Shown here: positions 7,622 to 34,754 of the stretch, one piece after another
How positions within the stretch are numbered: position 1 is the stretch's first letter
Layout: each line of letters begins with the position of its first letter
NCBI RefSeq assembly: GCF_023074835.1
Contig: NZ_JALLGW010000001.1
Coordinates: forward strand, 2,914,001 to 2,978,000
From: Halomarina salina
Lineage (GTDB): Archaea > Halobacteriota > Halobacteria > Halobacteriales > Haloarculaceae
Direction of reading: 5' to 3'
Length of the DNA: 64,000 nucleotides
Notes under the pieces: model-generated
Databases searched by the model: none
Seen by the model: the letters and a program-made list of their open reading frames with translations, nothing else
Told to the model about the DNA's origin: nothing
Position numbers and translations under genes: made by a program

Positions 7622-8860
7622 CTACTGGACGCCCATCTGCTTGGCGACGGTGTTGAGCTGAATCTCGTCGGCCCCTTCGACGATTCGGAGCAGACGCGCC
7701 AGGTGCAGGTGGTCCATGAACGGGTTCTCCTCCGAGAGGCCGTTGCCGCCGTGAACCTGCACGACGTCGTCTGCGACCTGCCAGTACGCGTTCGTCGCGA
7801 ACCACTTGAACGACGACGCCTCCTGGATGGCGTCCTCCCCGCCGTCCATCTGCCAGGCGAGGCGGAGGCCCAGGGCGTCGGCCGCGTCGACGTTCGCCCG
7901 GCCACGGGCGAGTTTGTGCGAGATGCCCTGGAACGTCCCGATGGGGCGGCCGAACGCCTCGCGGTCGTTGGCGTACTCCGTTCCGAGTTCGAGCAGGTGG
8001 TTCGCGTGACCGACGGCCTCCGCCCCGAGTTCCAGCCGCCCGAGCGAGAGGAACCCCATCGCCTCGTAGAACGCGTCGTCCACCTCACCGAGGACGCGGT
8101 CCTCGCCGACTCGCACGTCGTCGAGGTGGACTTCTGCCTGAAGGCCAACAGAGCCGACGGCGTTGTTGAGCGTGCCGACGTCGTACTCGTCGTCCTCAAC
8201 GAGGAAGCAGGTGATGCCGCCGTAGCGGCCCGCCTCCTCCTGTGGCGTCGTCCGCGCGAACACCTGCAGGAAGTCGGCGTAGGGAGCGTTCGTTATCCAC
8301 TGCTTCGTGCCGTTGAGCACCCACTCGTCGCCGTCTGCGTGCCCGCTGGCACGTTCCGCCCGGGTCTGCATGTTCGGCGAGTCGGAACCAGCGCCCGGTT
8401 CGGTCTGGGCGAACCCGGTGGACTTCTCGGCGCGAACGACGGGTTTCAGGTACTCCTCGACCTGGTCGCCCTCGGCGTTGGCGAGCAGCGGTTTCGGTCC
8501 CTCCGGGCCGGCGAGGACGTGCGACGCGAGGCCCGTCCCGTGGCTGGCGACGTGACGCTTCGCCCGATACCAGGTGACGTTCGAGACGTCCTCGCCGCCG
8601 TACTCCTGGGGCAAGTTCATCGCGTAGAACCCCGCCGCCGCGCTCTTGCGACGGACCGTCTCGATGGCCTCCAGCGCCTCGTCGACGTACCGCCCGTCGG
8701 CGTCGTGGCGGACGCGAGGGTTCGACCACGACTCGCCGAGGTCGTCTTCGAGCGGGCGGACCTCGCGCTCGACGAACTCGTCGAGCGACGAGCGGACGAG
8801 TCGCCACTCCTCTGGCTCCGCGAAGGAGACGCCGTCGGTGGCCGTGTCCTGTGTTGCCAT
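7622..8860 (-). CDS. acyl-CoA dehydrogenase
   Basis: At 412 residues it has family length. It has the FAD/substrate motif FAQTEPGAGSDSPNM (residues about 150-164), the strand segment GTKQWITNAPYADF, the FAD-contacting REAFGRPIGTFQGISHKLA, and the C-terminal HGGNGLSEENPFMDHLHLAR. It oxidises the C2-C3 bond of an acyl-CoA and passes electrons to ETF. The N-terminal helix domain is somewhat unusual (EEWRLVRSSLDEFVEREVRPLEDDL). The gene is upstream of the membrane protein on the same strand. Together with the acyl-CoA ligase at 9334-10953 it suggests a beta-oxidation-like step on an unknown acid. Confidence 0.93.
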   Translation of the reverse strand: MATQDTATDGVSFAEPEEWRLVRSSLDEFVEREVRPLEDDLGESWSNPRVRHDADGRYVDEALEAIETVRRKSAAAGFYAMNLPQEYGGEDVSNVTWYRAKRHVASHGTGLASHVLAGPEGPKPLLANAEGDQVEEYLKPVVRAEKSTGFAQTEPGAGSDSPNMQTRAERASGHADGDEWVLNGTKQWITNAPYADFLQVFARTTPQEEAGRYGGITCFLVEDDEYDVGTLNNAVGSVGLQAEVHLDDVRVGEDRVLGEVDDAFYEAMGFLSLGRLELGAEAVGHANHLLELGTEYANDREAFGRPIGTFQGISHKLARGRANVDAADALGLRLAWQMDGGEDAIQEASSFKWFATNAYWQVADDVVQVHGGNGLSEENPFMDHLHLARLLRIVEGADEIQLNTVAKQMGVQ

Positions 8861-9333: not shown

Positions 9334-10953
<1,620 letters not shown>

Positions 10954-12169: not shown

Positions 12170-13393
12170 ATGCAACTCACCGACGTGCGGGTGCTCGACC
12201 TCACGCGCCTGTTGCCTGGACCGTACGCGACCCAGCTGCTCGCGGACCTGGGTGCGGACGTGGTGAAGGTCGAGGACACGGGCGCGGGCGACTACGCCCG
12301 TCACATGCCGCCGATGGTCGACGGCGTCGGCGCGGTGTTCGACGGCGTGAACCGGGGGAAGCGGAGCGTCGCCATCGACCTCAAGACCGACGCCGGCCGC
12401 GAAGCGTTCTACGCGCTCGTCGAGGACGCGGACGCCGTCGTGGAGTCGTTCCGGCCGGGCGTCGTCGAACGACTCGGCGTCGACTACGACACCCTCTCGG
12501 ACCACAACGACGACCTCGTCTACGTCTCGGTGACGGGCTACGGCCAGACCGGCCCCCTCGCGGACCGTGCGGGCCACGACCTGAACTACGTCGGCCGCGC
12601 CGGCCTGCTCGACATGACCCGCGAGGACGAGGAGGCCGCCCCGGCCGTCCCCGGCTACCAGATCGGCGACCTCGGCGGCGGCCTGTTCGCCGCGTTCTCG
12701 GTCGTCTCGGGACTGCTCTCCCGCGAGTTCGGAGACGGCGGGAGCTACGTCGACGTCTCGATGGCCGACGTGGTGCTGTCGTTCGGACAGGCGCACGCGG
12801 CGGAGGCGTTCCAGGCGGCGCCGAGCGGCGAGAAGGACGGAGGCGAGGCAGGCACGACGAGCAGCGAGGCGGGCGGAGAGCACGCGGGACCGCGTCCCGG
12901 CGAGACACCGCTCACGGGCGCGTACCCGTGGTACGACGTCTACGAGGCGGCCGACGGCTACGTGACGCTGGCGGCGCTGGAACCGCAGTTCTGGGAGGCG
13001 TTCTGCGAGGCCGTCGACCGGCAGGACCTCGTGGAGTACCACGGGACGGAAGACGACGCCGAACGCACCGCGCTCCGCGAGGAACTCGGCGTCATCTTCG
13101 CCGAGCGCACCCGCGATGAGTGGGCCGACCTCGGCCCGCAGACGACGGTCGAACCGGTCCAGTCCATCGCCGAGGCGGTCGACGACGACAGCTTCCGCGA
13201 ACGAGTCGTCGTCGGGGGCGGCGACGGTGACTCGGGGGCACGACCGCGACTCGGGTTCCCGGCGGTCTGCGACCGCCCCGACACAGACGAGTCCTCGCCC
13301 GGACACGGCGAGCACACCGATGCGGTGCTCGAAGCCGTGGGCTACGACACCGGGACACTCACGACCCTCCGCGAAGAAGGGGTGATTCGATGA
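12170..13393 (+). CDS. CaiB/BaiF family III CoA-transferase
   Basis: At 407 residues it matches the family, whose members (formyl-CoA transferase, alpha-methylacyl-CoA racemase, carnitine CoA-transferase) move CoA between carboxylates. It starts with the family hallmark VLDLTRLLPGPYATQLLADLGA (given here by ends, residues about 7-28). It has the CoA-binding VKVED and the catalytic aspartate in YQIGDLGGG (Asp167). The segment at about residues 225-245 (KDGGEAGTTSSEAGGEHA) is a low-complexity insert. A TATA element GTTTATGCA ends about 24 nt before the ATG. It overlaps the LLM gene by 4 nt (ATGA), so the two form one operon. Confidence 0.92.
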   Translation: MQLTDVRVLDLTRLLPGPYATQLLADLGADVVKVEDTGAGDYARHMPPMVDGVGAVFDGVNRGKRSVAIDLKTDAGREAFYALVEDADAVVESFRPGVVERLGVDYDTLSDHNDDLVYVSVTGYGQTGPLADRAGHDLNYVGRAGLLDMTREDEEAAPAVPGYQIGDLGGGLFAAFSVVSGLLSREFGDGGSYVDVSMADVVLSFGQAHAAEAFQAAPSGEKDGGEAGTTSSEAGGEHAGPRPGETPLTGAYPWYDVYEAADGYVTLAALEPQFWEAFCEAVDRQDLVEYHGTEDDAERTALREELGVIFAERTRDEWADLGPQTTVEPVQSIAEAVDDDSFRERVVVGGGDGDSGARPRLGFPAVCDRPDTDESSPGHGEHTDAVLEAVGYDTGTLTTLREEGVIR

Positions 13394-14379
13394 GCCTCGA
13401 CCGACTCGGCGTCCTCGTCTCGCCCGGCCTCGACGACCCAACGGCGTTCGCCGTCCGCGCTGAGGAACTCGGCTACGACTCCGCGTGGACGAACGAACTC
13501 TGGTTCGAGTCCGGCGTCGTCCGCGCCCAGGACATCGCCGCCCACACCGACGACATCGACCTCGGGACCGCCATCCTCAACGTGTTCTCGCGCTCGCCCG
13601 CGGTCCTGGCGATGACCGCCGCGACCATCGACCGCCTCTCGGACGGCCGGTTCACGCTCGGTCTCGGCACCTCGACGCAGAAGGCCGTCGAGGACCTCCA
13701 CGGGATGGGCTGGGACGACCCGAACCCGGTGCGCAAGGCCCACGAGACCATCGAACTCACGAAGGAGTTCCTGTCGGGCGACGGGCGCGTCGAGTACGAG
13801 GGCGAGACGGTGTCGGTCGCCGACTTCCCCGCACTCGGGCGGGACGTGCCCGTCTACCACGCGGCGCTCGGCCCGGCCAACCGCCGGGTCGTCGCCCGTC
13901 TCTGTGACGGCTGGATTCCCCACAACGTCCCGTTCCCAGACCTCGACGAGTCGTTCGACTACATCGCCGACCACGCCGAGGAGGCGGGGCGGGACCCCGA
14001 CGACATCACCGTCGCGCCGTACGTCCCCTGCTGCGTCGCGGACGACGCCGAGACGGCACGCCAGCACGTCCGCGAGCACCTCGCGTACTACGTCGGCAAC
14101 GGCGAGGGCTACCGGAAGGCGGTCGCCCAGCGGTTCCCCGACGGGGCCGACGAGGTGGCCGACAACTGGCGCGCCGGCGACCGTGGCGACGCCGCGGCGG
14201 CCGTCACCGACGAGATGGTCGCGGCGCTCGGCGTCGCCGGGACTCCCGAGGAGGCCCGCGAGCAACTGCGCGAGGTAGCCGAACTCGACGCCATCGACCG
14301 ACCGCTCGTCGTGATTCCCAACGGTGCCGAAGAGCGCGCCGAGCAGACGATGGAGGAACTGGCCCCCGACAACTTCTGA
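13390..14379 (+). CDS. LLM-class F420/flavin-dependent oxidoreductase (paralogue 1)
   Basis: The 329-residue luciferase-like TIM barrel belongs with haloarchaeal putative F420-dependent oxidoreductases (TIGR04024/NP1902A-like family, by pattern). Typical segments are AFAVRAEELGYDSAWTNE, LGTAILNVFSRSPAVLAMTA and LSDGRFTLGLGTS. It probably transfers hydride between reduced F420 or FMN and an organic substrate. Coupling to a CoA-transferase (ATGA overlap) places it in breakdown or activation of a CoA ester. A second paralogue lies at 23338-24402, coupled in the same way to an SDR. The substrate is unknown. Confidence 0.88.
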   Translation: MSLDRLGVLVSPGLDDPTAFAVRAEELGYDSAWTNELWFESGVVRAQDIAAHTDDIDLGTAILNVFSRSPAVLAMTAATIDRLSDGRFTLGLGTSTQKAVEDLHGMGWDDPNPVRKAHETIELTKEFLSGDGRVEYEGETVSVADFPALGRDVPVYHAALGPANRRVVARLCDGWIPHNVPFPDLDESFDYIADHAEEAGRDPDDITVAPYVPCCVADDAETARQHVREHLAYYVGNGEGYRKAVAQRFPDGADEVADNWRAGDRGDAAAAVTDEMVAALGVAGTPEEAREQLREVAELDAIDRPLVVIPNGAEERAEQTMEELAPDNF

Positions 14380-14414
14380 GCGGGCGCGACGACTCGCTCG
14401 CCCAGCGGTTCTCC

Positions 14415-15596
14415 TTACTCCTCGGCCCGCACCAGCGCCGAGCGGTCGAGGTCGCGGACGCTCGTCCGCCCGAGGTTCGAGAGCGTGATGTCGACGTCCG
14501 CCCGGAGGTTCGAACACACCTCGCGGACGCCATCACGGCCGTCGACCGCGAGTCCGCAGGCGAACGGCCGGCCGACCATCACGGCGTCGGCCCCGAGTGC
14601 CAGCGCCGTGAGCACGTCCGCCCCGCGTCGAATCCCGGAGTCGAAGGTGACCGGCACGCGGTCCATCGTCGCCTCGACGACGGCCGGGAGCGCGTCGAGC
14701 GCGCCGACGGAGTTGTCGACCTGCCGCCCGCCGTGGTTCGAGACCGCGATGGCCTCGGCTCCGCGGTCGATGGCCTCCTCGGCGTCCTCCGGGTGGAGGA
14801 TACCCTTCACGACCACCGGGAGGTCCGTCATCCCGACGAGGTCCTCGAGGAACTGCCAGTCCATCGACGGGTCGCCGAACACGTCGAGGAACTCCTGGGT
14901 CGCCACGTCGGGGTTCTCCTCGGGTTCGACGTCGAGGCGCTCGCGGAAGACGGGGTCAGAGAAGTAGTTCGCCATCCCCTCGCCGTCGAGCATCGGCAGG
15001 TAGCCGCCCTGCAGGTCGCGCTCTCGCCAGCCGAGGATGGGGACGTCCGCGGTGAGGACGATGGCGTCGAACCCGGCGTCCTCGGCGCGTTCGACGAAGC
15101 TCTCGGTGACCGCCTGGTCGCTGGAGGCGTACAGCTGGAACCACTTCGGCGTGTCACCGAGCACCTCGGCCACCTCCTCCAGCGTGTAGGAGGCGACCGA
15201 ACTGAGACACATCGGGACGTCGAGGTCGCTGGCGGCCGTCGCCGTCGCTCGCTCGCCCTCCTCGTGCATGATGGTCTGGATGCCGATGGGGGCGAGACAG
15301 AACGGAACGTCCCAGCGGTCGCCCAGCAGTTCGACGCTCAGTTCCCGCTCGCTCACGTCGCGCAGCATCCGCGGGAGGAGGCTCCAGTCCTCGAAGGCGT
15401 CGGTGTTCGCGCTCATCGTGCGCTCGCCGCCCGCGCCGCCGGCGAGGTAGTTCGCCGCCCGGTCGTCCATCGCGTCGAGCGCCGCGCGTTCGAGGTCCTC
15501 GTAGCGCACCGGGAGCGACGGTGGCTGGTCGGCCAGCATCCCCATCGCGTAGATGTCGCGCTGTCGGTCCTGCCCGTAGGGCTCGGATGGCTCCAT
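14415..15596 (-). CDS. FMN-dependent alpha-hydroxy-acid oxidase/dehydrogenase
   Basis: This 393-residue TIM-barrel enzyme is of the glycolate oxidase / lactate 2-monooxygenase / mandelate dehydrogenase family. Visible motifs are PFCLAPIGIQTIMH (FMN site), WFQLYASSDQAVTESFV, VVVKGILHPEDAEEAIDRG and the active-site AVSNHGGRQVDNSVGALDAL (histidine-arginine pair), followed by FDSGIRRGADVLTALALGA. It oxidises an L-2-hydroxy acid to the 2-keto acid. The start at 15596 (MEPSEPYG) is chosen over 15620 because a TATA-like CTTATGTG occupies 15619-15626. It is convergent with the CoA-transferase/LLM operon. Confidence 0.92.
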   Translation of the reverse strand: MEPSEPYGQDRQRDIYAMGMLADQPPSLPVRYEDLERAALDAMDDRAANYLAGGAGGERTMSANTDAFEDWSLLPRMLRDVSERELSVELLGDRWDVPFCLAPIGIQTIMHEEGERATATAASDLDVPMCLSSVASYTLEEVAEVLGDTPKWFQLYASSDQAVTESFVERAEDAGFDAIVLTADVPILGWRERDLQGGYLPMLDGEGMANYFSDPVFRERLDVEPEENPDVATQEFLDVFGDPSMDWQFLEDLVGMTDLPVVVKGILHPEDAEEAIDRGAEAIAVSNHGGRQVDNSVGALDALPAVVEATMDRVPVTFDSGIRRGADVLTALALGADAVMVGRPFACGLAVDGRDGVREVCSNLRADVDITLSNLGRTSVRDLDRSALVRAEE

Positions 15597-15820
15597 AGCG
15601 GGCGCTCGACCGGGCGACACATAAGCGGTGTGCGGACGCGGCTCATGCCAGACGCCTTCCCTGCGTCACCTCGCGCGAGAATCAGCACTCCGACGCACGC
15701 TCCCGGGCGTCCGAGCGGACCGCGGCGTTCCCCAGCGGTCCGGCACCGGGTGTGGCCGTGGGTGACAGGCCTATGTGAATTACCACGGGCCTTAACCACC
15801 GTACGACTCGAGAAACTCGG

Positions 15821-16567
15821 GTGCGACTCCGCCTCACCTCCATCGCCCTGCTCGCCCTGCTGGTCCTCGCGGGCTGTGCTGGAAGCCCGCCCGCACCGCC
15901 GGGGACCACGGACGGTCTGGTCGCGAACGAATCGACCGGTGACCGCGTCCCGCCGGTTCCGGACCGACCCGACCGACTGACCGCCGACGCCGTCGCAGCG
16001 TACGCGAACGCCACCGAGACGCACCGGCTCTACCGCGACGCGGTCGCCGAGGGAGCGACCGACGTCGACGTGACGTGTTCGGGGAGTCCGGTCGCCCTCG
16101 GCGACGCGGCCGGGTACGCGCTGGTCGACTGCGACGGGTCGGTGTACCGCGGTGACTCGGTCGATAGCACCCAGTTCACGGCGTTCTACCGCGTCACGAC
16201 GGACGGCGAGACCCGCATCGAACGCGTCTCGTCGCGCGACGAGGGCGGCGACGCCGACCGGCGACTCCGCGTCTACAACCTCGGCGACGAGCGACGCTCG
16301 CTCTCGGTGAGCCTCTCTCCAGCCGGTTCGACCGGAGCCGACGACTCCACAACCTACGAGTACACTCTCGACCCCGAGTCCGGTGCGACGACGACCGGCC
16401 TCCGCCTGAACGCGTCGGCCGACGGCTACGCCGTGACCGCCGCCCTGAACGGCAGTGACAGCATCTCGACGCGGTGGGAGACCGGCGCGTCCGGTGCCGG
16501 CGGGACGACGGGCGTCGTGGTCGTCGCGCCCGACGGCGACCTCGTGTGGGGGACGGCCGCCGCGTAG
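15821..16567 (+). CDS. secreted lipoprotein of unknown function
   Basis: The 248 residues start with GTG. The signal peptide RLRLTSIALLALLVLAGC ends in a lipobox (LAGC, Cys at about residue 19), so the mature protein is anchored to the outer face of the membrane through a lipid. The mature part is rich in T, S, D and G, with beta-strand character and two further cysteines (DVTCSGSP, LVDCDGS) that may form a disulfide. The GTG start is supported by a CCTTAACC element 24-31 nt upstream, giving a leaderless transcript. No enzymatic motif is seen. Confidence 0.8.
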   Translation: MRLRLTSIALLALLVLAGCAGSPPAPPGTTDGLVANESTGDRVPPVPDRPDRLTADAVAAYANATETHRLYRDAVAEGATDVDVTCSGSPVALGDAAGYALVDCDGSVYRGDSVDSTQFTAFYRVTTDGETRIERVSSRDEGGDADRRLRVYNLGDERRSLSVSLSPAGSTGADDSTTYEYTLDPESGATTTGLRLNASADGYAVTAALNGSDSISTRWETGASGAGGTTGVVVVAPDGDLVWGTAAA

Positions 16568-16606
16568 CGTCGCGAGACGGCGATGCGGTCGCCCCGATTC
16601 CCCTCC

Positions 16607-17383
16607 TCAGAAACTGAACAGGTCGATACCGCCCGTGACGCCGACGACCTGCCCGGTGACGTAGTTCGCCTGCTCGCTGGCGAGGTACGCCACCGTGTTC
16701 GCCACGTCGCGCTCGCGGCCGAGTTTCCGCATCGGCGTCGCCTTCGCGATGCGCGCGAAGTGCTCGTCGAACTGCTCCAGCTCCTCGATGCTCATGTCGG
16801 CGAACTCGTCGACGACGATGTTCGGCGCGATGATGTTGGCGGTGACGCCGCTCTGTGCGCCCTCCAGCGCGAGCGTCTTGCCGAACCCGATGAGTGCGGC
16901 TTTCGTCGCGGCGTAAGAGGCCTGCCCGAACCCGCCCTGCCAGCCGGCCATCGAGGACATGTTGATGACGCGACCCCAGCCACGGTCGCACATCGCCGGG
17001 AATATCTCGCGCGTGACGTTGTACGTCCCGGTGAGGTTGATGGCGACGTCGCGGTCCCAGATGTCGTCGTCGTAGTCCTGCATCCGGGCGCGGGCGTCGA
17101 CCATCCCCGCGTTGTTGACGAGGACGTCGACGCCGCCGGTCTCCTCGCGGATGGCCTCGACGGTCGCCCCCACGTCCTCGCGGTCCGTCAGGTCGCACTC
17201 GACGGCGAGGCCCTCGCCGCCCGCCTCCTCGACGGTCTCGATGGCGTTCTGCGCCGCGTCCAGGTCCACGTCGAGGGCGACGACCGTCGCTCCCTCCTCG
17301 CCCAGCACCTCGCAGTCCTCGCTCCCGATGCGGCCCCCGCCGCCGGTGACGAGCGCCGTCTTGTCGCTCAGTCCGAAGTCCAT
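16607..17383 (-). CDS. short-chain dehydrogenase/reductase (SDR), paralogue 1
   Basis: The 258-residue classical SDR has TGGGGRIG for NAD(P) binding (residues about 13-20), an acidic residue after strand 2 (ALDVDLDAA) that favours NAD, NNAGMVD, serine in INMSSMAG, and catalytic YAATK (about residue 155). It probably acts as a 3-hydroxyacyl-CoA dehydrogenase or 3-oxoacyl reductase. The start at 17383 (MDFGLSDKTALVTGG) is backed by a TATA element GCTATTTGTG about 23-32 nt upstream. It lies in the 2-hydroxyacid/acyl-CoA catabolic stretch and is convergent with the lipoprotein gene. Confidence 0.92.
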   Translation of the reverse strand: MDFGLSDKTALVTGGGGRIGSEDCEVLGEEGATVVALDVDLDAAQNAIETVEEAGGEGLAVECDLTDREDVGATVEAIREETGGVDVLVNNAGMVDARARMQDYDDDIWDRDVAINLTGTYNVTREIFPAMCDRGWGRVINMSSMAGWQGGFGQASYAATKAALIGFGKTLALEGAQSGVTANIIAPNIVVDEFADMSIEELEQFDEHFARIAKATPMRKLGRERDVANTVAYLASEQANYVTGQVVGVTGGIDLFSF

Positions 17384-17535
17384 GACAGCCACACATCGAA
17401 GAGGCGTCACAAATAGCTACGCGCCGCAGTGGTCGTGTCGCCCCGACTCGCCGGTCGTCGCGCCCGCCCGGACGGTCGTCGAGACGCGCTCACACTCGCG
17501 TCAGCGATTTGCCGTCCCTCGGCGTACGGCCGCAC

Positions 17536-18081
17536 ATGAGCGACGCCGACGCGGACTGGCGCGACCGACTGGACCACGACCGCGCGCAGAAGGACGAGTA
17601 CTTCGCCGACCACCCGCAGTCGCCGCTCCCGCGGACCGAGCGCGACTCGTTCGATGGACTGTCGTACTACGCTCCCGACGAGCGCTACCGGTTCGTCCTC
17701 CCGCTCCACGAGTTCGACGAGCGCGAGACGGTCAGCGTCGGGACGACCACCGAGGGTGAACGGGAGTACCTGCGCTGGGGAGCGTTCCGGTTCGACCTCG
17801 ACGGCGAGGAACGCAGCCTGACCGCCTACAGAGCCGACCCGAACGAGGACCGTCTCTGGGTACCGTTCACCGACGAGACGAACGGCGAGACGACCTACGG
17901 TGGTGGGCGCTACCTCGACCTCGACGCCGACGACCGCCGCGGGGACGGAACGTGGCTGCTCGACTTCAACGCCGCCTACAACCCGTTCTGCGTCTACTCC
18001 GACGCCTACGAGTGCGCGCTCGTCCCCTTCGAGAACCGCCTCGACGTTCGCATCGAGGCGGGCGAGCGCGTCGACTACTGA
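17536..18081 (+). CDS. DUF1684 family protein
   Basis: The 181-residue soluble protein fits DUF1684 well. It has the opening DEYFADHPQSPLP, the block GLSYYAPDERYRFVLPL, TYGGGRYLDLDADD, and the strongly conserved LLDFNAAYNPFCVYSDAYEC followed by PFENRLDVRIEAGERVDY (given by ends). The family function is not established; a role related to acyl-chain or surface metabolism has been suggested only by context. The start at 17536 (MSDADADWRD) is the ATG at which the acidic N-terminus begins; an upstream TTG would add nine residues. It is divergent from the SDR gene. Confidence 0.88.
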   Translation: MSDADADWRDRLDHDRAQKDEYFADHPQSPLPRTERDSFDGLSYYAPDERYRFVLPLHEFDERETVSVGTTTEGEREYLRWGAFRFDLDGEERSLTAYRADPNEDRLWVPFTDETNGETTYGGGRYLDLDADDRRGDGTWLLDFNAAYNPFCVYSDAYECALVPFENRLDVRIEAGERVDY

Positions 18082-18180
18082 GCGAGGTCGCTCGGGTCCG
18101 ACTGCTCGTCGTCCGAGGTGGGGGACTGGCTCGTGTCCGGGAGTGAAACCGTCGCTCTCCGTACTGGAGCCGTCCCCGAC

Positions 18181-18648
18181 TCACTCCAGCGCCTGTGCGT
18201 AGTCGACCTGCTTCGGCCGGAACCCCGCGTCACGGTAGAACCGTCGCGCGCCGTCGTTCTGCCACTCACAGGAGACCGTGAGGTGGTCACACCCCCGGTC
18301 GCGGGCTATCTCCTTCACGCGCTCGACGACCGCCGTGCCGTGACCGTGGTTCCGGTGACCGTCGTCGACGGCGAGGTCCACGATGCGGAGCGACCGTGAG
18401 TACTCTCGGGACGGGTGGTGGCCGGTTCGGAGCGTGACGTACCCGATAGTCTCGGTCTCGTGGACGACCAGGTAGACACTCACCGCATCGTCGTCGAGCA
18501 GTGCACGGAACCCGTCGTCGGAGACCTCGTCGATTCCGTCGTGACGTAGCTCGTTCAGTTCGTCGTACGTCTCCATCGCTCGCGCGAGGGAGTACCAGCG
18601 CGCGACGAGTGCGTCGAGGTCCTCGGTGGTGGCTTCGACGAGTTCCAT
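18181..18648 (-). CDS. GNAT family N-acetyltransferase
   Basis: The 155-residue GNAT fold has the acetyl-CoA binding motif A region LRIVDLAVDDGHRNHGHGTAV (ends given; the R-x-x-G-x-G pyrophosphate loop reads HRNHGHG, about residues 95-105). The C-terminal strand/helix GARRFYRDAGFRPKQVDY is typical of the family. The acceptor is unknown; such proteins acetylate amines, amino acids or antibiotics. A TATA-like TAGTTTGAA on the bottom strand at about 18674-18682 supports the ATG at 18648. It is convergent with DUF1684. The 222 bases between this gene and the next contain no other feature I can support. Confidence 0.9.
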   Translation of the reverse strand: MELVEATTEDLDALVARWYSLARAMETYDELNELRHDGIDEVSDDGFRALLDDDAVSVYLVVHETETIGYVTLRTGHHPSREYSRSLRIVDLAVDDGHRNHGHGTAVVERVKEIARDRGCDHLTVSCEWQNDGARRFYRDAGFRPKQVDYAQALE

Positions 18649-18870
18649 AGGACGACTCCCCGGTGCTCGGTGTTCAAACTACGCACGGTGTGACACAGAC
18701 TGGCATCCATCAGTGGGCCAGCAGCCTGAACCCGGAACGACCGCTCTACTCGGCGGATGGCGTCATCGTGCGTGGCCCGGACGCGCTGCCTGACCTGCAC
18801 GCAGAACTCCGGCACACGTGCTCGTGAACCGATTCGTCACTTCAGGGGTCGTCCGACCCTGCCAGGGGAC

Positions 18871-19641
18871 TCAGACGAGTCCGACGATGTCGAGCAGTTC
18901 GCGCAGGTCCGAGACGACGTAGTCGACGACGTCGTCCGGGTCCTCGGCCGCTCGCTCCGCGGCCGACCCGCCGTGGGCGACGGTGACGAGTCCGGCCCGC
19001 GACCCGCCGCGCATGTCGTGGTCGTAGCGGTCGCCGACGTACAGCGACCGCTCGGGGGCGACCGGCGCGTCGGCCAGCGCCGCCTCGAACATGGCGGGGT
19101 CGGGTTTCGTCCGGCCGACGGCCTCGCTCGTCGTGACGCGGTCGAACCGGTCGTAGATACCGAACCCGGAGAGCATGCGTTCCGCCTCCCAGGTGTCGAT
19201 GTCGGAGACGACGCCGAGGTACCGGTCGGCCTCGTCCAGCGCGCGGACCGTCTCGACCGCTCCCGGCGACGGCCGGACGGTGCGCGTGGTCGTCTCCTCG
19301 AACAGCGGTCGCCAGTCGGCGTCCGGGACGGTAGTAGGGTGGTCCTTCCGGCCGTCGAGTACCGCCTCACGGTCCAGCGACGTTGATTTCTGAAGTGCGA
19401 CGGCGGCGGCGATAGCGTGTCGATAACCGTCGAGTGCGGGCCGGAAGGTGGTGCCGTCGCGGCCCGAGAAGTACGCGCCGAGCGCCGCGCGCCAGTCGTC
19501 GACCAGTTGCTCGACGTCGTCGATCCCCTCGCGGTCGGCGAACCGTCCGAGGAACGCCTCGTGACCCGCCCGGACCGACGAGAGGTCGAGCAGGACGCCG
19601 CCGATGTCGAAGAAGACGCCCTCGTAGGCCAGGTCGTCCAT
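18871..19641 (-). CDS. HAD-superfamily hydrolase (phosphatase/dehalogenase-like)
   Basis: The 256-residue HAD subclass I protein has motif I FFDIGGVLLD (nucleophile Asp about residue 12; the usual second Asp is Gly, as in YihX-type enzymes), motif II SDIDTW, motif III lysine in GRTKPDPAMFEAAL (about residue 178), and motif IV YVGDRYDHDM. It probably hydrolyses a small phosphorylated metabolite. The stop is 66 bp from the neighbouring MBL-fold hydrolase gene on the same strand, which could be co-transcribed. The substrate cannot be read from the sequence. Confidence 0.88.
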   Translation of the reverse strand: MDDLAYEGVFFDIGGVLLDLSSVRAGHEAFLGRFADREGIDDVEQLVDDWRAALGAYFSGRDGTTFRPALDGYRHAIAAAVALQKSTSLDREAVLDGRKDHPTTVPDADWRPLFEETTTRTVRPSPGAVETVRALDEADRYLGVVSDIDTWEAERMLSGFGIYDRFDRVTTSEAVGRTKPDPAMFEAALADAPVAPERSLYVGDRYDHDMRGGSRAGLVTVAHGGSAAERAAEDPDDVVDYVVSDLRELLDIVGLV

Positions 19642-19707
19642 GCTCAGACGGTGGGCGCGTGGCGGTTGAGTCTGCTGGTCGCTCGCGGTCGAGGAGCGGC
19701 CCGGCCG

Positions 19708-20673
19708 TCAGGACGTCTCGTAGCGACGGACGCCGTCCACGACGGTCGATTCGAGGCGGCCGGTCGCGTCGAGGTGGGTGAGCGCGGCGACCACTTCGGC
19801 GACGATGTACTCGATACCCCGGTCGCGGGCTCGTCGGTCGGCGACCTCCTCCACCGTCGTCGCGCCGTCGGCGACGCTCTCGACCGTCCGGTCGAGCATC
19901 CGGTCGAGCGAGTCCCGGTCGCGGTCGACGGTCTCGGTGAACCGCTCGTGGACCGGACCGTGGCCGGGGTAGACGGTTCCGACGTCGAGCGCGTCGAGTC
20001 GGTCGAGTGCGGTCCGAAACGCGTCGATGGCGTCCTCGACCCCACGGTCGAGACCCGCGTGGAGCACCACCGGCCGGAACGGTTCGATGGCCATGTCGCC
20101 CGCGAGGAGGGCGCGCTCGTCGGGCAGGTAGAAACAGCAGTGGTCGGCCTGGTGGCCGGGCGTGTGGGCCGCTTCGACGGTCGTTCCCGCGACGTCGAAG
20201 CGGTCGCCGTCTTCGACCCAGGTGTCGACGGCCTCGACGGGGAGCAGGTCGCGACTTCGGTGGAGCGACCCGACGGCCATCTCGACGGCGTGCTCGACCG
20301 CCGCGTCGTCGAGTCCGGCGCGGGTCGCGGTGGTTCGAACGGTCGCCGCGAGGTCGTCGGGGTCGCGGTCGAACCGGTCGCGGACGCTCGCGGGCGCGTA
20401 GACGTGTGGGTCGGCGGCCTTAACGACGCGTTGAACCTGTCCGACGTGGTCGACGTGCGGGTGCGTGAGCAGGAGGTGGGTGACGTCGGAGAGGTCCTCG
20501 TCGAGTGCCCCGAACGCCTCACTGAGCGCGGTTTCACCGCCCTCGTCGGGCGTCACGGCGTCGACGAGTGCGAGCGACGCTCCGCCGGCCCCGTCGGGGT
20601 CGAGGAGGTACGCGGCGACGTGGCCCGGTGGCCAGTCGACCGATGCTTCGATGCGGTGGACGCGGCCGGTCAT
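19708..20673 (-). CDS. MBL-fold metallo-hydrolase
   Basis: The 321-residue beta-lactamase-fold protein has the metal motif LLLTHPHVDHVGQV (H-x-H-x-D-H), the second-site histidine region AHTPGHQADH, AGDMAIEP with the bridging aspartate, and the C-terminal histidine in YPGHGPVHE. It binds two zinc ions and probably hydrolyses a thioester or ester, as glyoxalase-II-like or lactonase relatives do. The tail (about residues 260-320) looks like a winged helix, which is common in the LACTB2-like subgroup. The start at 20673 (MTGRVHRIEASV) fits the fold. It is divergent from the Tat lipoprotein gene. Confidence 0.9.
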   Translation of the reverse strand: MTGRVHRIEASVDWPPGHVAAYLLDPDGAGGASLALVDAVTPDEGGETALSEAFGALDEDLSDVTHLLLTHPHVDHVGQVQRVVKAADPHVYAPASVRDRFDRDPDDLAATVRTTATRAGLDDAAVEHAVEMAVGSLHRSRDLLPVEAVDTWVEDGDRFDVAGTTVEAAHTPGHQADHCCFYLPDERALLAGDMAIEPFRPVVLHAGLDRGVEDAIDAFRTALDRLDALDVGTVYPGHGPVHERFTETVDRDRDSLDRMLDRTVESVADGATTVEEVADRRARDRGIEYIVAEVVAALTHLDATGRLESTVVDGVRRYETS

Positions 20674-20797
20674 CGAGCGAAGCGTCGGCACGGAGCGCGA
20701 AAAGGTCCCTGATGCGGGATGGGAACTGCCGGAAACCACCAACTACCCCGCTGGTTGTGTGCGACTAACTATTGACCGAAGGGAATAGATACGAGAC

Positions 20798-22390
20798 ATG
20801 CAACGGCGACGGTACCTCGCAGTGTGTGGCACCGCAGCAGCGGGTCTGCTTGCAGGCTGCAATCAGACCGGTGGCTCCTCCCCCGGAAACAACGAGACCG
20901 TAGAAGGAGAGGCGCAGTTCAACAACATCATCATCAACGCTCCACAGCAGGCACCCATCGGGAGCGAGGTGACGATGACCATCAGCGCGCGGAACTTCGG
21001 CGGCCAGACCGGGACGTACGAAGACCGGATCGTCACCTCCAACGGCGACACCGACTTCGCGCAGGACATCAGCATCACGGACGTCCAGTCCGGGCAGACC
21101 GGCGAGGTCGAGGTGAACGCGCCGGTCAACGGGGCTGGCGAGTACCGCTTCACGCTCGAAGAGGCGGAGGTGTCCGCGACGGTGAACGTCACCGCGGAGG
21201 CCGTCGAGATCGGCAAGATGGTCGACGTCGGCAACAACCTCCAGCTGACGTTCACCGACGCGTCGTTCCGCGGCGGCGTCTACTACCGGTACGTCGACAA
21301 CGTCGGCTGGACGACGGACATGTTCGCACCGGGCGAGAGCGGCCGGACGCTCGCCGTCTTCAAGGGGAAGATGAAGAACACCGGCTCGCAGGAGACGGTC
21401 ATCCGTCCCGAGCGGTTCAGCGTCACGGAAGGCACCGTGTTCAACAACCTGGACGGCAAGCCGCTCTCGACCGTCGAGAGTGTCGAGGGACAGTCCCTCA
21501 TCGGGTCGCCCATCAAGGGCGGGCAGACCGTCGAGGGGTGGGTGCTGGCGAGCGTCCCGAAGAACCAGGTCCAGCAGAACGGCGTCGGCGTCGGCTGGTC
21601 GCTGAACGCGCAGGGCGGCGGCCCCGACCGCGTCTGGTCGTTCCCACCGCGCGCGCTGCCGACGTGGCAGCAACTGGAGTTCCGCCTCTCGGACCGGCCC
21701 GACAACGGGCAGATAACCGGCGAGATAACGGTCCGGAACGCCGGACAGGTCGAGTCGACGTTCTACGGCCTCGCCGAGTTCCACTACCAGGGCGTCGGCT
21801 GGGTGCCGGCGGCCTACCCCAGCGGCACCGTCGCGCCCGGCGCGACGAAGACGTTCACCTTCGACTACGGCTGGCCGTACATCCAGCAGATGGAGTGGCG
21901 CATCCAGCCGTTCCCGGACACCCGACGGATGGTCGAGGCCGGTCCGCTCACGCTCGACTACGGGCAGGAGACCTACGGCATCGACGAGTCGACGGTGACG
22001 GTGTCGAACCCGCGGTTCATGCAGCGCTACAGCTACAGCGCGACGCAGTCCTCCGGCGGGGAGAACAACCAGGTGACGAAACAGCGCGAGGCGAGCGGCG
22101 GCAAGAAGTTCCTCTTCGTCGACGTGAAAGCGACCGTCGGCAAGGAGGGCGGGCAGGTGCCGCTGCCCGACTCGTTCGTCGTGAAGGCGGGCGAGTCGAA
22201 CATCAAGCCGTTCGTCGGACCGACGCCGACCAACCCCGACGTGTCGTTCTACTCGGGGGCGAACGGCGGGAAGCAGGGCGACACGTCCACGGGAGTGCTC
22301 GTCTTCGAGGTCCCGTCGAGCGTGTCGCGGCCTGCGGTCAACTACCACGAGGAGTTCCGGGAGCTGACGAGCGACATCACCTGGAACTGA
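20798..22390 (+). CDS. Tat-exported lipoprotein of unknown function, possible DUF4352-like C-terminus
   Basis: The 530-residue protein has a short twin-arginine signal (MQRRRYLAVCGTAAAGLLAGC), ending in lipobox LAGC with Cys21, which is typical of haloarchaeal Tat lipoproteins. The extracellular part is a chain of beta-rich domains: a CARDB-like domain (about 45-125, SEVTMTISARNFGG), a middle domain about 130-330, and a C-terminal domain (about 400-530) whose KFLFVDVKATVGKEGG segment recalls DUF4352/telokin-like domains. It has fewer acidic residues than cytosolic neighbours. It could be a cell-surface binding protein. A weak TATA-like CTATTGA is found about 27 nt upstream. Confidence 0.78.
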   Translation: MQRRRYLAVCGTAAAGLLAGCNQTGGSSPGNNETVEGEAQFNNIIINAPQQAPIGSEVTMTISARNFGGQTGTYEDRIVTSNGDTDFAQDISITDVQSGQTGEVEVNAPVNGAGEYRFTLEEAEVSATVNVTAEAVEIGKMVDVGNNLQLTFTDASFRGGVYYRYVDNVGWTTDMFAPGESGRTLAVFKGKMKNTGSQETVIRPERFSVTEGTVFNNLDGKPLSTVESVEGQSLIGSPIKGGQTVEGWVLASVPKNQVQQNGVGVGWSLNAQGGGPDRVWSFPPRALPTWQQLEFRLSDRPDNGQITGEITVRNAGQVESTFYGLAEFHYQGVGWVPAAYPSGTVAPGATKTFTFDYGWPYIQQMEWRIQPFPDTRRMVEAGPLTLDYGQETYGIDESTVTVSNPRFMQRYSYSATQSSGGENNQVTKQREASGGKKFLFVDVKATVGKEGGQVPLPDSFVVKAGESNIKPFVGPTPTNPDVSFYSGANGGKQGDTSTGVLVFEVPSSVSRPAVNYHEEFRELTSDITWN

Positions 22391-22445
22391 GTCGCCGAAC
22401 GGTCAGCGCTCGAAGGGAAGCGCGCGGGACCCCGTGAGCGAGCGA

Positions 22446-22461
22446 GTCGGCGACTGCCGAC
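22446..22461 (+). terminator. hairpin after the Tat-lipoprotein gene
   Basis: A perfect 6-bp stem (GTCGGC / GCCGAC) with a GACT loop lies about 56 bases after the stop of the lipoprotein gene and before the next promoter. No T-tract follows, so termination is only a possibility. Confidence 0.35.
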
Positions 22462-22558
22462 CCGACCACCGCGAACCTGCCGTCGCCTCGTTCCGACCGT
22501 CGGAGTAAAGGTGGTCCCGGCGGTTCGAACGGCTACGGATGAACCGGAGTGATTTTTC

Positions 22559-23341
22559 GTGAACGTCGAGCAGTTCAGCGTCGCCGACCAGACGGTCGTC
22601 ATCACGGGCTCCTCGCAGGGAATCGGCGAGGCGACAGCGCGTCGGTTCGCCGAGGACGGCGCGAACGTCGTCGTCTCCTCGCGCGACCAGGAGAAAGTCG
22701 ACGCCGTCGCGGACGCCATCAACGAGGACGACCCGGAGGGTCGGGCCATCGCCGTCGCGTGTGACGTACGCGAACGCGATGCCGTGGAGGCGCTCGTCGA
22801 GGCCACCGTCGAGGAGTTCGGCGGGCTCGACACGATGGTCAACAACGCCGGCGCGTCGTTCATGACGGGCTTCGACGACATCTCGGAGAACGGCTGGAAG
22901 ACCATCGTCGACATCAACCTCCACGGGACGTACCACTGCTGTCAGGTCGCCGGACAGCAGATGCAGGAGCAGGACGACGGCGGGTCCATCGTCAACTTCG
23001 CCAGCGTGGCGGGACTGGAGGGGTCGCCGTACATGAGCCACTACGGGTCGGCGAAGGCCGCCGTCGTCAACCTCACGAAGACGCTGGCGTTCGAGTACGC
23101 CGATCACGACATCCGCGTCAACTGCGTCGCGCCGGGGTTCGTCGCAACGCCCGGCGTCGAGTCACAGATGGGTGTCAGCGCGGAGAACGTCGAGCGCGAC
23201 ACCGTCAAGCGCCGGATGGGGCTGAGCGAGGAGATAAGCGACATCGTCCAGTTCCTCGCGACTCCCGCGTCCTCGTACATCGTCGGTGAGACCATCCGGG
23301 CCGCGGGCGTGCCCGACATCATGGAGTCACCCGAGGTATGA
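22559..23341 (+). CDS. short-chain dehydrogenase/reductase (SDR), paralogue 2
   Basis: The 260-residue classical SDR has TGSSQGIGEATARRFAEDG (cofactor loop, residues about 16-34), NNAGASFM, the catalytic serine in NFASVAG, and YGSAK (about residue 161). It probably oxidises or reduces a hydroxy/keto acyl compound. The start is GTG at 22559. The gene overlaps the following LLM gene by 4 nt (ATGA), so the two are one operon parallel to the CoA-transferase-LLM operon at 12-14 kb. A seven-codon frame ATG...TGA (22539-22562, MNRSDFS) ends across the GTG start and may be a chance or coupled leader. Confidence 0.92.
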   Translation: MNVEQFSVADQTVVITGSSQGIGEATARRFAEDGANVVVSSRDQEKVDAVADAINEDDPEGRAIAVACDVRERDAVEALVEATVEEFGGLDTMVNNAGASFMTGFDDISENGWKTIVDINLHGTYHCCQVAGQQMQEQDDGGSIVNFASVAGLEGSPYMSHYGSAKAAVVNLTKTLAFEYADHDIRVNCVAPGFVATPGVESQMGVSAENVERDTVKRRMGLSEEISDIVQFLATPASSYIVGETIRAAGVPDIMESPEV

Positions 23342-24402
23342 GCGACGACGAGAGTGACGTAGACGACGGCGGACACGCGAGCGATGCAGACCACGCGAGC
23401 GACGCCGACCGCGACGTGTTCCTCCCCGTCGCCGCCCAGCCGAGCGTCGACGCACTGGTCGAGCAAGCGGAGCGCGCCGAGTCGCTGGGGTACGACCGTG
23501 CCTGGCTCCCCGAGACGTGGGGGCGCAACGCGATGGTCGTGCTGACGAGCATCGCCGAGCGGACCGAGACCATCGGTCTCGGCACCTCCATCGCGCCCAT
23601 CTACTCGCGCTCCCCGGCGCTGACCGGGATGAGTGCGGCGACGCTTCAGGAGGTGTCGGACGGCCGGTTCCGTCTCGGACTCGGTCCGTCGGGCCCCATC
23701 GTCATCGAGAACTGGCACGGCGTCGACTTCGGCAACCCGCTCCGCCGCACCCGCGAGACCGTCGACGTCGTCAGGCAGGTGCTCTCCGGGGAGGAGGTGG
23801 AGTACGACGGCGAGTACTTCGACGTGTCGGGCTTCCGCCTGCGCTCGGCGGTGCCCGACCCTGCGCCGTCCATCGACGTGGCCGGGATGGGGCCGAAGTC
23901 GGTCGAACTCGCGGGACGCTTCGCCGACGGGTGGCACGCGCTCATGCTCACCCCCGATGGACTGGCGGACCGGATGGAGGACGTCGAACGCGGTGCCGAA
24001 CTCGGTGACCGCGACCCCGACGACGTTCGCGTGACGCTGTCGCTGACCTGCGCGGCGCTGGAGGACCGCGAACGCGCTCGCGACATCGTCCGCCAGCACA
24101 GCGCGTTCTACGTCGGCGGGATGGGGACGTTCTACCGCGACAACCTCGCCCGACAGGGGTACGAGGAGACGGCCAACACCGTCTACGACGAGTGGAACGG
24201 CGGCGACCGGCAGCAGGCCATCGACGCCATCGACGACGACCTGCTCGACGACCTCGCGGTCGCCGGAACGCCCGACGAGGCGCGCGAGCGACTCGAACGG
24301 TTCGAGTCGCTCGACGCCGTCGACGCGGTGTCGGTGTCGTTCCCGCGCGAGGCGACCATCGAGGAGATCAACGCCACCATCGACGCGCTCGCGCCGTCGT
24401 AA
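23338..24402 (+). CDS. LLM-class F420/flavin-dependent oxidoreductase (paralogue 2)
   Basis: The 354 residues form a luciferase-like barrel homologous to the protein at 13390-14379. Shared segments include RAESLGYDRAWLPETWG, GLGTSIAPIYSRSPALTGMS, VSDGRFRLGLGPSG and AGTPDEARERLERF. About 28 extra N-terminal residues form an acidic low-complexity leader with an 18-bp tandem duplication (23374-23391 and 23392-23409, giving HASDAD twice). It is translationally coupled to an SDR. It probably catalyses an F420- or FMN-linked redox step in the same type of catabolic route; the substrate is unknown. Confidence 0.88.
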   Translation: MSDDESDVDDGGHASDADHASDADRDVFLPVAAQPSVDALVEQAERAESLGYDRAWLPETWGRNAMVVLTSIAERTETIGLGTSIAPIYSRSPALTGMSAATLQEVSDGRFRLGLGPSGPIVIENWHGVDFGNPLRRTRETVDVVRQVLSGEEVEYDGEYFDVSGFRLRSAVPDPAPSIDVAGMGPKSVELAGRFADGWHALMLTPDGLADRMEDVERGAELGDRDPDDVRVTLSLTCAALEDRERARDIVRQHSAFYVGGMGTFYRDNLARQGYEETANTVYDEWNGGDRQQAIDAIDDDLLDDLAVAGTPDEARERLERFESLDAVDAVSVSFPREATIEEINATIDALAPS

Positions 24403-24586: not shown

Positions 24587-26275
24587 ATGAGCGACCAGTA
24601 CACGGGCGCTGACCTGTTCGTCGACGCGCTCGAACAGTACGGCGTCACGCACCTGTTCGGCAACCCCGGAACGACCGAACTGCCCATCATGGAGGCGCTC
24701 GGCGACAGCGACCTCGAGTACGTCCTCGGCCTCCACGAGGACGTCGCCGTCGGGATGGCCGGGGGCTACGCCCAGACCCGCCGGTACCACGCTCACGACG
24801 ACGAGGACGTGATGCCCGCTGGCGTCGTGAACCTCCACGTCACCCCCGGCCTCGCACACGGCCTCGGCAACGTCTACGCGGCGAGCATGACCGGCGCGCC
24901 GCTCGTCGTCACCGCCGGCAACCACGAACTCGACTTCCGCCACGAGGAGCCCATCCTCTCGGGCGACCTGCTCGAACTCGCCGGGCAGTTCTGCAAGTTC
25001 AGCGCCGAGGTCACCAGCGTCGAGGCGCTACCGCTGCTCGTCCGCCGGGCGTTCCGTATCGCGCTCACGCCACCGATGGGGCCGGTGTTCCTCGCGCTCC
25101 CGGCGGACGTGATGATGACCGAGACCGACGCCGACCCGGAACCGCTGGGCGCGATACCGACCGCCGGGCGCGGCGACGCCGCCCAGATAGACGAGGCGGC
25201 GCGACTGCTCGCGGAGGCGGAGAACCCCGTCCTCGTCCTCGGCGACCACGTCGCCCGAGCCGACGGGTCGGAGGCGGCCGTCGCCCTCGCCGAGGCCTCG
25301 GGGGCGCGGGTCCACGGCGAGATGCTCGCCTGCGAGGTGAGCTTCCCCGGCGACCACGAGCAGTGGCTCTCGTTCATCCCGCCGCGCGAGCAGTTCGCCT
25401 CGATGCTGTTGAACGCGGACACGCTCGCGTTCGTCGGCACCTCGACGAACACCACGCTGCTCCCCCACGAGTCCGACCTCGTCCCCGAGTCGGCGACCTG
25501 CATCCACGTCGGGAGCGACCCCGACGAGGTCGGGAAGCTCTACCAGGCCGACGCCGCCGTCGTGGGTGACCCGGGAGAGGTGATGGCCGACATCGCCGAC
25601 CGCGTCGCCGACCGCGTGGACGAGGACGAACGTCGCCGCCGCATCGAACAGGTCGAGACGCTCAAGGAGTCGATGTCGGGGATGCTCGACGGCGTCGGGA
25701 TGGGCGACGCCGGCCCGGACGACCCGCGCCCGTCGAAGGCCGAACTCGTCGACGCGCTCCGGTCGGCCGCGCCGGACGCCTACGTCGTCGACGAGGGCGT
25801 CACCTCGAAGTACCCGCTCATGCTCCGCTGGCCGCTGCAGGCCGGCCAGTTCGTCTCGAACAAAGGCGGCGGCCTCGGCTACGGGCTCCCCGCGAGCGTC
25901 GGCGCGGCACTCGCGGAGGGGATGCGAGACGACCCGCGACAGGTCGTCGGCTTCGTCGGCGACGGGTCGTACCTCTACTACCCCCACAGCCTCTACTCCG
26001 CCGCCCGGTACGACCTCGACCTGACGGTGGTCGTCCCGGACAACCGCAACTACCGCATCCTGAAGGACAACACGAACGCCATCTTCGGCGGCGACGACGA
26101 GGACCACACGTTCGTCGGCATGGACTTCGACCCGCCGGTCGACATCCCCGCCAACGCGCGGTCTCACGGCGCGAGTGCGGGCCAGGCCGAGACGCCCGAC
26201 GAACTGGAGGGAGCCATCGAGGAGGCGCTCTCGACGCCCGGCCCGTACGTGCTGGACGTGCTCGTCCACGACTGA
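24587..26275 (+). CDS. thiamine-diphosphate-dependent enzyme, benzoylformate/2-ketoacid decarboxylase-like
   Basis: The 562-residue protein has the three-domain layout of the acetolactate synthase/benzoylformate decarboxylase family. The PYR domain has the ThDP-activating glutamate in GLHEDVAVGMAGGYAQ (Glu51), the middle domain spans about 185-345, and the PP domain has GDGSYLYYPHSLYSAARYDL with DNRNY as Mg-ThDP motif (about residues 463-487). It should act on a 2-keto acid (decarboxylation or carboligation). The nearby FMN and FAD 2-hydroxyacid oxidising enzymes could supply the keto acid. A TATA element GTTATTTCAC lies about 22-32 nt before the ATG. Confidence 0.9.
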   Translation: MSDQYTGADLFVDALEQYGVTHLFGNPGTTELPIMEALGDSDLEYVLGLHEDVAVGMAGGYAQTRRYHAHDDEDVMPAGVVNLHVTPGLAHGLGNVYAASMTGAPLVVTAGNHELDFRHEEPILSGDLLELAGQFCKFSAEVTSVEALPLLVRRAFRIALTPPMGPVFLALPADVMMTETDADPEPLGAIPTAGRGDAAQIDEAARLLAEAENPVLVLGDHVARADGSEAAVALAEASGARVHGEMLACEVSFPGDHEQWLSFIPPREQFASMLLNADTLAFVGTSTNTTLLPHESDLVPESATCIHVGSDPDEVGKLYQADAAVVGDPGEVMADIADRVADRVDEDERRRRIEQVETLKESMSGMLDGVGMGDAGPDDPRPSKAELVDALRSAAPDAYVVDEGVTSKYPLMLRWPLQAGQFVSNKGGGLGYGLPASVGAALAEGMRDDPRQVVGFVGDGSYLYYPHSLYSAARYDLDLTVVVPDNRNYRILKDNTNAIFGGDDEDHTFVGMDFDPPVDIPANARSHGASAGQAETPDELEGAIEEALSTPGPYVLDVLVHD

Positions 26276-31583: not shown

Positions 31584-32276
31584 TCACTCGACCGGTAGCG
31601 CGGACGTGTCGATATCTTCCCGCCGACCGTCGAGGACGGCGAACCGCTCGCCGCGGCGGCGTTCCAGCCAGTACAGCAGGCGCTCCGCCCACGCGAGTTT
31701 CCGACGCTTCTCCGGCGAGACCTCTGGGTCGTCGAACGCCCACCCCGGAAACAGCAGTTCGTCCGCGCCGAAGTGGTCGGCGAGGAACGCTCCGCGGTCG
31801 CCGTCGGTGAACCCGCCGAGGTTCTCGACCGGGCCGACCGGTTCGGCCTGCGTCGTCGGGAGCGTCCACTCGCTCGTCGTCTGCGGGACGTACTCCTCGA
31901 CGAGCGGCCGGTTGTCGCCGTGGGCGTGGACCGCGACGGGCGTCGACTCGTGGGTCAACTCGACCGCTGTCTCCGGGTTCTTGTCGAGGTCGGTCACCAT
32001 CAGGTCGACCGCGACGCCCTCGGCGCGGCAGACGTCGGCGGCCGTCGAGGCGGCGACGACGAGGTCGGCACGCCGCGCGAGGGCGAGGTCGTCGGCGAGC
32101 GACGGAGCCGCGCCACAGACCGCGACGGTCGCGCCCGCGAACGGTGGAAGACGGTCGTGGTCGAACCGTCGGGCGAGTACGGCGAGGCGGTCGCGGACGC
32201 GTTCGTCACCGGCCCGGTCGTAGCCGAAGTCGCGGAGTATCGCCTCGTAGACGGGGTTCCAGTCGGTGTATCGCAT
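31584..32276 (-). CDS. mptE: 6-hydroxymethyl-7,8-dihydropterin pyrophosphokinase, archaeal MptE-like
   Basis: The 230-residue protein has the DUF115/MptE pattern: NPVYEAILRDFGYDRAGDE, the nucleotide-handling VAVCGAAPSLADDLALA (residues about 63-79), DLMVTDLDKNPETAVE and AVHAHGDNRPLVEEYV. In archaea this family replaces FolK, transferring pyrophosphate from ATP to hydroxymethyldihydropterin for folate or methanopterin synthesis. Its neighbour upstream on the same strand is dihydropteroate synthase, the next enzyme of the pathway. The start MRYTDWNP is used. A TATA-like TTTATTAC at about 32287-32294 is too close for a leaderless start, so the promoter may lie further up, near 32365-32376. Confidence 0.85.
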   Translation of the reverse strand: MRYTDWNPVYEAILRDFGYDRAGDERVRDRLAVLARRFDHDRLPPFAGATVAVCGAAPSLADDLALARRADLVVAASTAADVCRAEGVAVDLMVTDLDKNPETAVELTHESTPVAVHAHGDNRPLVEEYVPQTTSEWTLPTTQAEPVGPVENLGGFTDGDRGAFLADHFGADELLFPGWAFDDPEVSPEKRRKLAWAERLLYWLERRRGERFAVLDGRREDIDTSALPVE

Positions 32277-33571: not shown

Positions 33572-33653
33572 GGACGGACCTAGCGGCGGACGGGTCAAAG
33601 CCGGTGCGGTCGCGGCACGTCGATACGGTCGCACCACGTCGTCTCGGGCGTCT

Positions 33654-33664: not shown

Positions 33665-33709
33665 GAACGCGCCGCAGTACTTTTGGTGGGTTGGAGCCAA
33701 CGATGTGAC

Positions 33710-34720: not shown

Positions 34721-34754
34721 GCCGAGACGGCGAGACGCCGGGTCGAGTCGACGC

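Follow-up and report, generated by a model that had tools for sequence, protein, structure and literature searches.

Two luciferase-like oxidoreductase gene pairs of Halomarina salina may belong to separable haloarchaeal modules

The importance of coenzyme F420 in halophilic archaea has been called 'enigmatic', and the 2021 annotation review that says so mentions, to its authors' knowledge, only one F420-dependent reaction reported there (PMC8305020). The luciferase-like (LLM) enzymes that use this coenzyme are divided by Mascotti et al. (PMC6279831) into a reductase group that includes Mer and a dehydrogenase group that includes FGD and Adf; that paper and another (PMC8498797) cover Adf, FGD, fHMAD and fPKR, LLM enzymes with dehydrogenase or ketoreductase activity, which have their superfamily in common with the proteins described here and offer alcohol/ketone hydride transfer as a candidate chemistry. 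Among open-licence papers we found none on F420-dependent luciferase-like enzymes or methylacyl-CoA racemase in haloarchaea, a search on halophilic archaea, coenzyme F420 and acyl-CoA returned only a methanogen paper, and by title and abstract none of the papers listed describes the system reported below or gives an experimental function for either of its LLM proteins. We analysed 64,000 nucleotides of Halomarina salina (contig NZ_JALLGW010000001.1, positions 2,914,001 to 2,978,000; hereafter the window), which hold two gene pairs on the + strand. The first consists of a racemase-type protein of CoA_transf_3 fold, CoAT (12170-13393; PF02515), and the F420-type luciferase-like oxidoreductase LLM1 (13390-14379; PF00296, Bac_luciferase); the second of the short-chain oxidoreductase SDR2 (22559-23341; PF00106) and LLM2 (23338-24402), assigned by NCBIfam match, tree and structural model. 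An earlier sequence-only reading had placed all four genes correctly and had called the two LLM proteins homologous, as their 41% identity bears out; all four genes have clear Pfam matches and a high G+C content at third codon positions (0.90-0.93).

We favour, with moderate confidence, the explanation that each pair belongs to a module of its own, the two modules being separable and lying side by side in some haloarchaea: module A, comprising an acyl-CoA synthetase (ACS; 9334-10953, - strand; AMP-binding), CoAT, an acyl-CoA dehydrogenase (ACAD; 7622-8860, - strand; Pfam Acyl-CoA_dh N, M and C), the short-chain dehydrogenase SDR1 (16607-17410, - strand; PF00106) and LLM1, and module B, comprising SDR2-LLM2. 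In a survey of 175 haloarchaeal genomes of the order, LLM2 was found in 120 and LLM1 in 66, with 59 carrying both (odds ratio 6.6 by Fisher's test), and SDR2 was present in 103 of the 120 LLM2 genomes (odds ratio 31), values that overstate significance because the genomes are phylogenetically non-independent and the counts uncorrected. Module B is more widespread than module A: 61 genomes carry LLM2 without LLM1, and 48 of these also have SDR2. The two genes of module B lie within 2.5 kb of each other in 62 genomes, while 41 more have both genes not found that close, some of them for lack of contig. With 103 of 175 genomes carrying both and adjacency in 62, SDR2-LLM2 is a good first target for F420 function, and the two conserved neighbouring pairs offer a concrete handle on the role of F420 in haloarchaea. 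Of the 34 genomes that have both LLM genes on one contig, 11, counting that of the window, place them at most 30 kb apart; these 11 come from six genera and three families. The operons do co-occur, then, the reverse of one of the outcomes that the sequence-only reading had named as its own refutation. Both pairs share one stretch in Halomarina halobia, the metagenome-assembled genome QS_5_70_17, Halorarius halobius and Halorarius litoreus; in Halomarina rubra, the closest named genome (85% identity in LLM1, 49-91% in the recognised neighbours), the locus stops after SDR2. Conversely, two Haloglomus loci (L080, L081; L numbers denote fetched loci) have ACAD-ACS-CoAT-LLM1 with neither SDR2 nor LLM2 in the fetched stretch, and in five loci of one genus (L049, L050, L051, L053, L054) CoAT lies near an FMN oxidase and SDR2-LLM2, in genomes in which no LLM1 orthologue was found.

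The first protein of the LLM1 pair had been labelled a CoA-transferase; the fold agrees with that label, but the active-site residues are of the alpha-methylacyl-CoA racemase type. CoAT aligns with His126, Asp156 and Glu241 of MCR, the alpha-methylacyl-CoA racemase of Mycobacterium tuberculosis (1x74), which we take to be its catalytic residues, and two transferases in the same comparison are without the His. All three are retained in 37 of 38 CoAT family members, the window's included; the exception, L198_6, looks transferase-like. Unlike MCR, CoAT has an unaligned stretch between about residues 200 and 244, and formyl-CoA transferase and YfdE match it about as well as MCR does by E-value. 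Judged by these residues, CoAT is a putative racemase-type protein that would fit a 2-methyl-branched acyl-CoA substrate, and its pairing with LLM1 offers the 2-methyl-branched CoA esters as a concrete candidate substrate class. An oxalate-type CoA transferase working with the nearby thiamine diphosphate (ThDP) decarboxylase was considered and is disfavoured, because the active-site residues of CoAT are those of a racemase and because the matches listed for the ThDP protein at E up to 1e-30, 49 distinct sequences with many variants of a single enzyme among them, are benzoylformate decarboxylases without exception.

LLM2 belongs to TIGR04024 (F420_NP1902A; LLM class F420-dependent oxidoreductase), a hypothetical equivalog of NCBIfam whose model carries no named reaction; it scores 553.4 bits against a curated cut-off of 345.4, whereas LLM1, with 246.8 bits, stays under the cut-off and stands in a clade of its own. 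In a tree of 148 proteins the LLM1 clade (n=61, support 0.999) and the LLM2 clade (n=66, support 0.81) are separate and both fall outside Mer; since each spans several haloarchaeal families, the two do not stem from a recent duplication. For both proteins the second best NCBIfam match is the family model of mycobacterial Rv3520c, a protein for which two papers record inactivity in a Baeyer-Villiger assay (PMC9044951) and a KstR motif in the upstream region (PMC1995591). LLM2 has some 24 extra, acidic residues at its N-terminus (23338-23409) that include a HASDAD repeat; the genes called in L071, L075 and L077 lack this extension. By sequence, the nearest solved structures for LLM1 and LLM2 are those of Mer, yet the Mer model TIGR03555 (cut-off 348.7 bits) is not reached by either (133.5 and 148.6 bits). 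The catalytic glutamate of jMer is Glu6 (PMC11094777). We assigned Mer columns with MAFFT, using a Mer chain that has Asn at position 178, where the paper writes Gln178. Glutamate occupies the Glu6 column in 9 of 9 Mer proteins compared and in the Mer that H. salina itself encodes (contig C1:234941-235927), and in 0/61 LLM1 (1 gap) and 0/66 LLM2 (5 gaps); the Asp96 column holds Thr in 61/61 LLM1 and Gly in 66/66 LLM2. With the catalytic residues missing and a separate Mer in the genome, we rejected the idea that LLM1 or LLM2 is Mer or a second Mer. That separate gene directly follows, on the same strand, an over-cut-off match to cofE, encoding the F420 glutamyl ligase (C1:234186-235927 for the two), an adjacency that fits F420 use by this Mer. 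The columns of jMer residues 178 and 233 are also unlike between LLM1 and LLM2; in all, the two enzymes disagree at five out of six Mer positions compared, which suggests that they act on different substrates.

The sequence-only reading had left the cofactor of the two LLM steps as F420 or FMN, and on this point similarity and fold favour the former. Both AlphaFold models (pLDDT 94.5 for LLM1 and 89.4 for LLM2) show a luciferase-like TIM barrel whose nearest structures are F420 enzymes, as is expected of F420-dependent LLM proteins (LLHT), and in both fold searches the top eight PDB rows are Mer chains (TM-scores 0.76-0.88), ahead of FGD, FGD2 and Adf. That LLM1 and LLM2 are instead FMN monooxygenases, of the type II Baeyer-Villiger-like kind or hydroxylases, is distinctly unlikely. 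The superfamily does include such monooxygenases, the FMN bacterial luciferase 8cbb occupies the row right behind the Mer chains in both searches, and 'LLM class flavin-dependent oxidoreductase' is the annotation given in 12 of the 15 plasmid records listed for LLM1; against this, Mer comes first by sequence as well as by fold for both proteins, F420 enzymes fill 16 of the 21 rows at ranks 9-29 of the LLM2 search, and the residue pair at the site of the non-prolyl cis-peptide under the F420 ring in Mer (jMer Gly61-Val62) is Ala-Ile in 61/61 LLM1 and, among the 66 LLM2, Ser-Ile in 62 and Ser-Val in 4. F420 is therefore likely to be the cofactor of LLM1 and LLM2. Adf, FGD and fHMAD are farther than Mer from both by sequence or fold; since LLM1 and LLM2 are nearer to Mer than to Adf or FGD, an F420H2-driven, reductive hydride transfer would be expected by analogy. 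The relation to Mer could also be taken to mean that LLM2 works on one-carbon or pterin substrates, either as a second Mer or in place of dihydrofolate reductase (DHFR), the more so as the window has an MptE-like gene (31584-32276, - strand) and a dihydropteroate synthase (DHPS) gene (32444-35275, - strand), homologues of which occur in 38 and 27, respectively, of 66 LLM2 loci. These folate genes are usually on the strand opposite to LLM2, and we regard the proposal as barely credible given the replaced Glu6 and Asp96 and the Mer encoded elsewhere in the genome. The narrower idea of a DHFR replacement, prompted by the folP and mptE neighbours, was rejected for want of any anticorrelation across the 175 genomes (LLM2 and DHFR both in 66, LLM2 only in 54, DHFR only in 34, neither in 21; p=0.42). 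As an observation in itself, a PF00186 (DHFR) match at E 1e-5 is absent from those 54 LLM2 genomes and from those 21 without LLM2, some of them incomplete.

That both operons serve a single split catabolic route, with two F420- or FMN-dependent steps on CoA esters, was the central proposal of the sequence-only reading, and we consider it rather unlikely. In its favour, 59 of the 66 LLM1 genomes also carry LLM2, the two LLM genes are close in the 11 genomes mentioned and the pairs co-located in Halomarina halobia, two Halorarius and QS_5_70_17, and the two nearest structures to SDR2 are acyl-CoA enzymes; the CoA-ester part of the proposal is retained for LLM1, which ACAD, ACS and CoAT accompany in Halomarina, Halorarius halobius and Haloglomus. 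The joint route itself fits poorly with the 61 genomes that have LLM2 but no LLM1 and with active-site positions that are mostly unlike between the two enzymes. Furthermore, genes for Sir2, cupin, peroxiredoxin, HAD and MBL proteins, with no evident link to such a route, are for the most part retained in co-localised loci (L029-L032, L036, L070, L071, L075 and L077, not L033); the closeness of the pairs may thus be due in part, perhaps in large part, to the conservation of a whole chromosomal block. Besides the non-independence of the genomes, several observations weigh against our own assignment of LLM1 to module A. Counting as neighbours genes within four genes of each other (36 fetched places for CoAT, 61 for LLM1 and 19 for ThDP), no CoAT orthologue neighbours LLM1 in 46 of its 61 places, and within three genes of LLM1 the 44 CoAT-less loci with a called LLM often hold amidohydrolase (17), NadA (13) or FAD_binding_2 (8) genes instead, mostly in Natrialba, Natrinema and their kin, so that LLM1 may have no tie to CoA esters. 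Nor are the LLM genes of the H. salina genome, on contigs C1 and C3 and leaving aside the window pair and Mer, significantly near CoAT genes (3/10 within 8 kb, p=0.05; 1/10 within 3 kb, p=0.36) or near ACAD genes. A general LLM-CoAT closeness in this genome was accordingly dropped as proof, as 5/12 within 12 kb (p=0.003) with the window pair became 3/10 (p=0.14) without it. Relatives of LLM1 occur on 16 plasmid records; the stretches L072, L074, L076 and L110 hold no CoAT, and in L076 ACS and ACAD are close to the LLM1 relative. In favour of two separable modules, CoAT is found with ACAD, ACS or SDR1 and without LLM1 in the loci L200, L202, L206, L212 and L214, the genomes of L200, L202, L212 and L214 carrying LLM1 elsewhere. 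An acyl-CoA link is supported by further LLM families, relatives of LLM1 or LLM2, whose genes are at most three genes away from CoAT, ACS or ACAD in L147, L206 and L195.

In the two-module explanation, ACS would turn a 2-methyl-branched carboxylic acid into its CoA ester, CoAT would invert the alpha-methyl centre, ACAD would desaturate the product, SDR1 would oxidise the 3-hydroxy group and LLM1 would exchange a hydride between F420 and one of the intermediates on this branched-acid route, possibly in that order. In module B, SDR2, an NADP-type enzyme by prediction, and LLM2, an F420-type hydride transferase, may act on one substrate. A more far-reaching version, which we rate as very improbable, would see in the whole a pathway, linked to F420, for acids with methyl branches, perhaps isoprenoid ones: LLM1 would receive intermediates from ACS, a 2-methylacyl-CoA racemase and ACAD, SDR2-LLM2 would couple NADP with F420 to invert or reduce a centre of hydroxy/keto or enoyl-CoA type, and the nearby 2-hydroxyacid oxidases and ThDP decarboxylase would allow alpha-oxidation of the branched chain. 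If true, such an F420-linked branched-acid route would be a physiological role for F420 in haloarchaea.

The junctions of both pairs are, as had been claimed, ATGA overlaps of 4 nt, an arrangement that might couple translation. As a sign that the operons are parallel or kindred this sharing was rejected: -4 is the single commonest spacing, found in 132 of 1103 same-strand neighbour pairs (gap at most 200 nt; counted over the window and every locus examined, with overlaps between loci left in and genes in the examined loci called with a simple codon-usage finder) and in 3 of 25 such pairs inside the window, and is therefore uninformative on kinship. Its conservation across genomes is more telling than its sharing by the two operons. 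Outside the window, the exact -4 overlap is kept in 24 of 35 neighbouring SDR2-LLM2 pairs (against the 132/1103 background) and in 4 of 15 CoAT-LLM1 pairs, with a 1-nt overlap in 3 more of the latter.

The cofactor strands read VVALD in SDR1 and VVVSSR in SDR2, which by the usual rules presumably indicates NAD for the former and NADP for the latter. SDR1 has the Ser-Tyr-Lys of its family and is of the FabG/3-hydroxyacyl type by its best NCBIfam matches, none of the 25 listed being over cut-off; among the ten solved structures listed for SDR2, the two best are (3R)-hydroxyacyl-CoA dehydrogenase and peroxisomal trans-2-enoyl-CoA reductase, the rest being FabG-like or general SDRs. For ACS, NF004837 alone is over cut-off among the best 25 of 107 NCBIfam matches. 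ACAD orthologues have CoAT as a neighbour in 15 of 17 cases, a proportion biased by loci having been fetched around LLM and CoAT genes; ACS neighbours CoAT in 7 of the 36 places (L069, L070, L075, L080, L081, L202, L206), SDR1 in 9 and the FMN-dependent 2-hydroxyacid oxidase/dehydrogenase in 8. The last of these, an optional neighbour (14415-15620, - strand; PF01070), SDR1 and the ThDP enzyme (24587-26275, + strand) are all present where the sequence-only reading had them, between and around the pairs. The benzoylformate-decarboxylase-like ThDP gene forms a third conserved pair with an FAD-linked, GlcD-like 2-hydroxyacid dehydrogenase gene (28837-30255, - strand), which neighbours it in 15 of 19 places, and this pair suggests a 2-hydroxyacid to aldehyde route; LLM2 neighbours the ThDP gene in 14 of the 19. 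Between the two LLM pairs, HAD hydrolase (18871-19641, - strand) and MBL-fold hydrolase (19708-20742, - strand) genes are syntenic neighbours.

In the same genome, four gene matches on contig C3 (261,172 bases) appear a second time exactly 243,092 bases further on; the contig is therefore probably circular, a plasmid of some 243 kb whose assembled sequence ends in 18 kb of redundancy, and the apparent duplicates of LLM and CoAT genes on it are likely an assembly artefact. With 13 matches to acyl-CoA dehydrogenase (PF00441) in roughly 243 kb, where the 3.1-Mb contig C1 has 8, it would be a catabolic plasmid rich in acyl-CoA genes.

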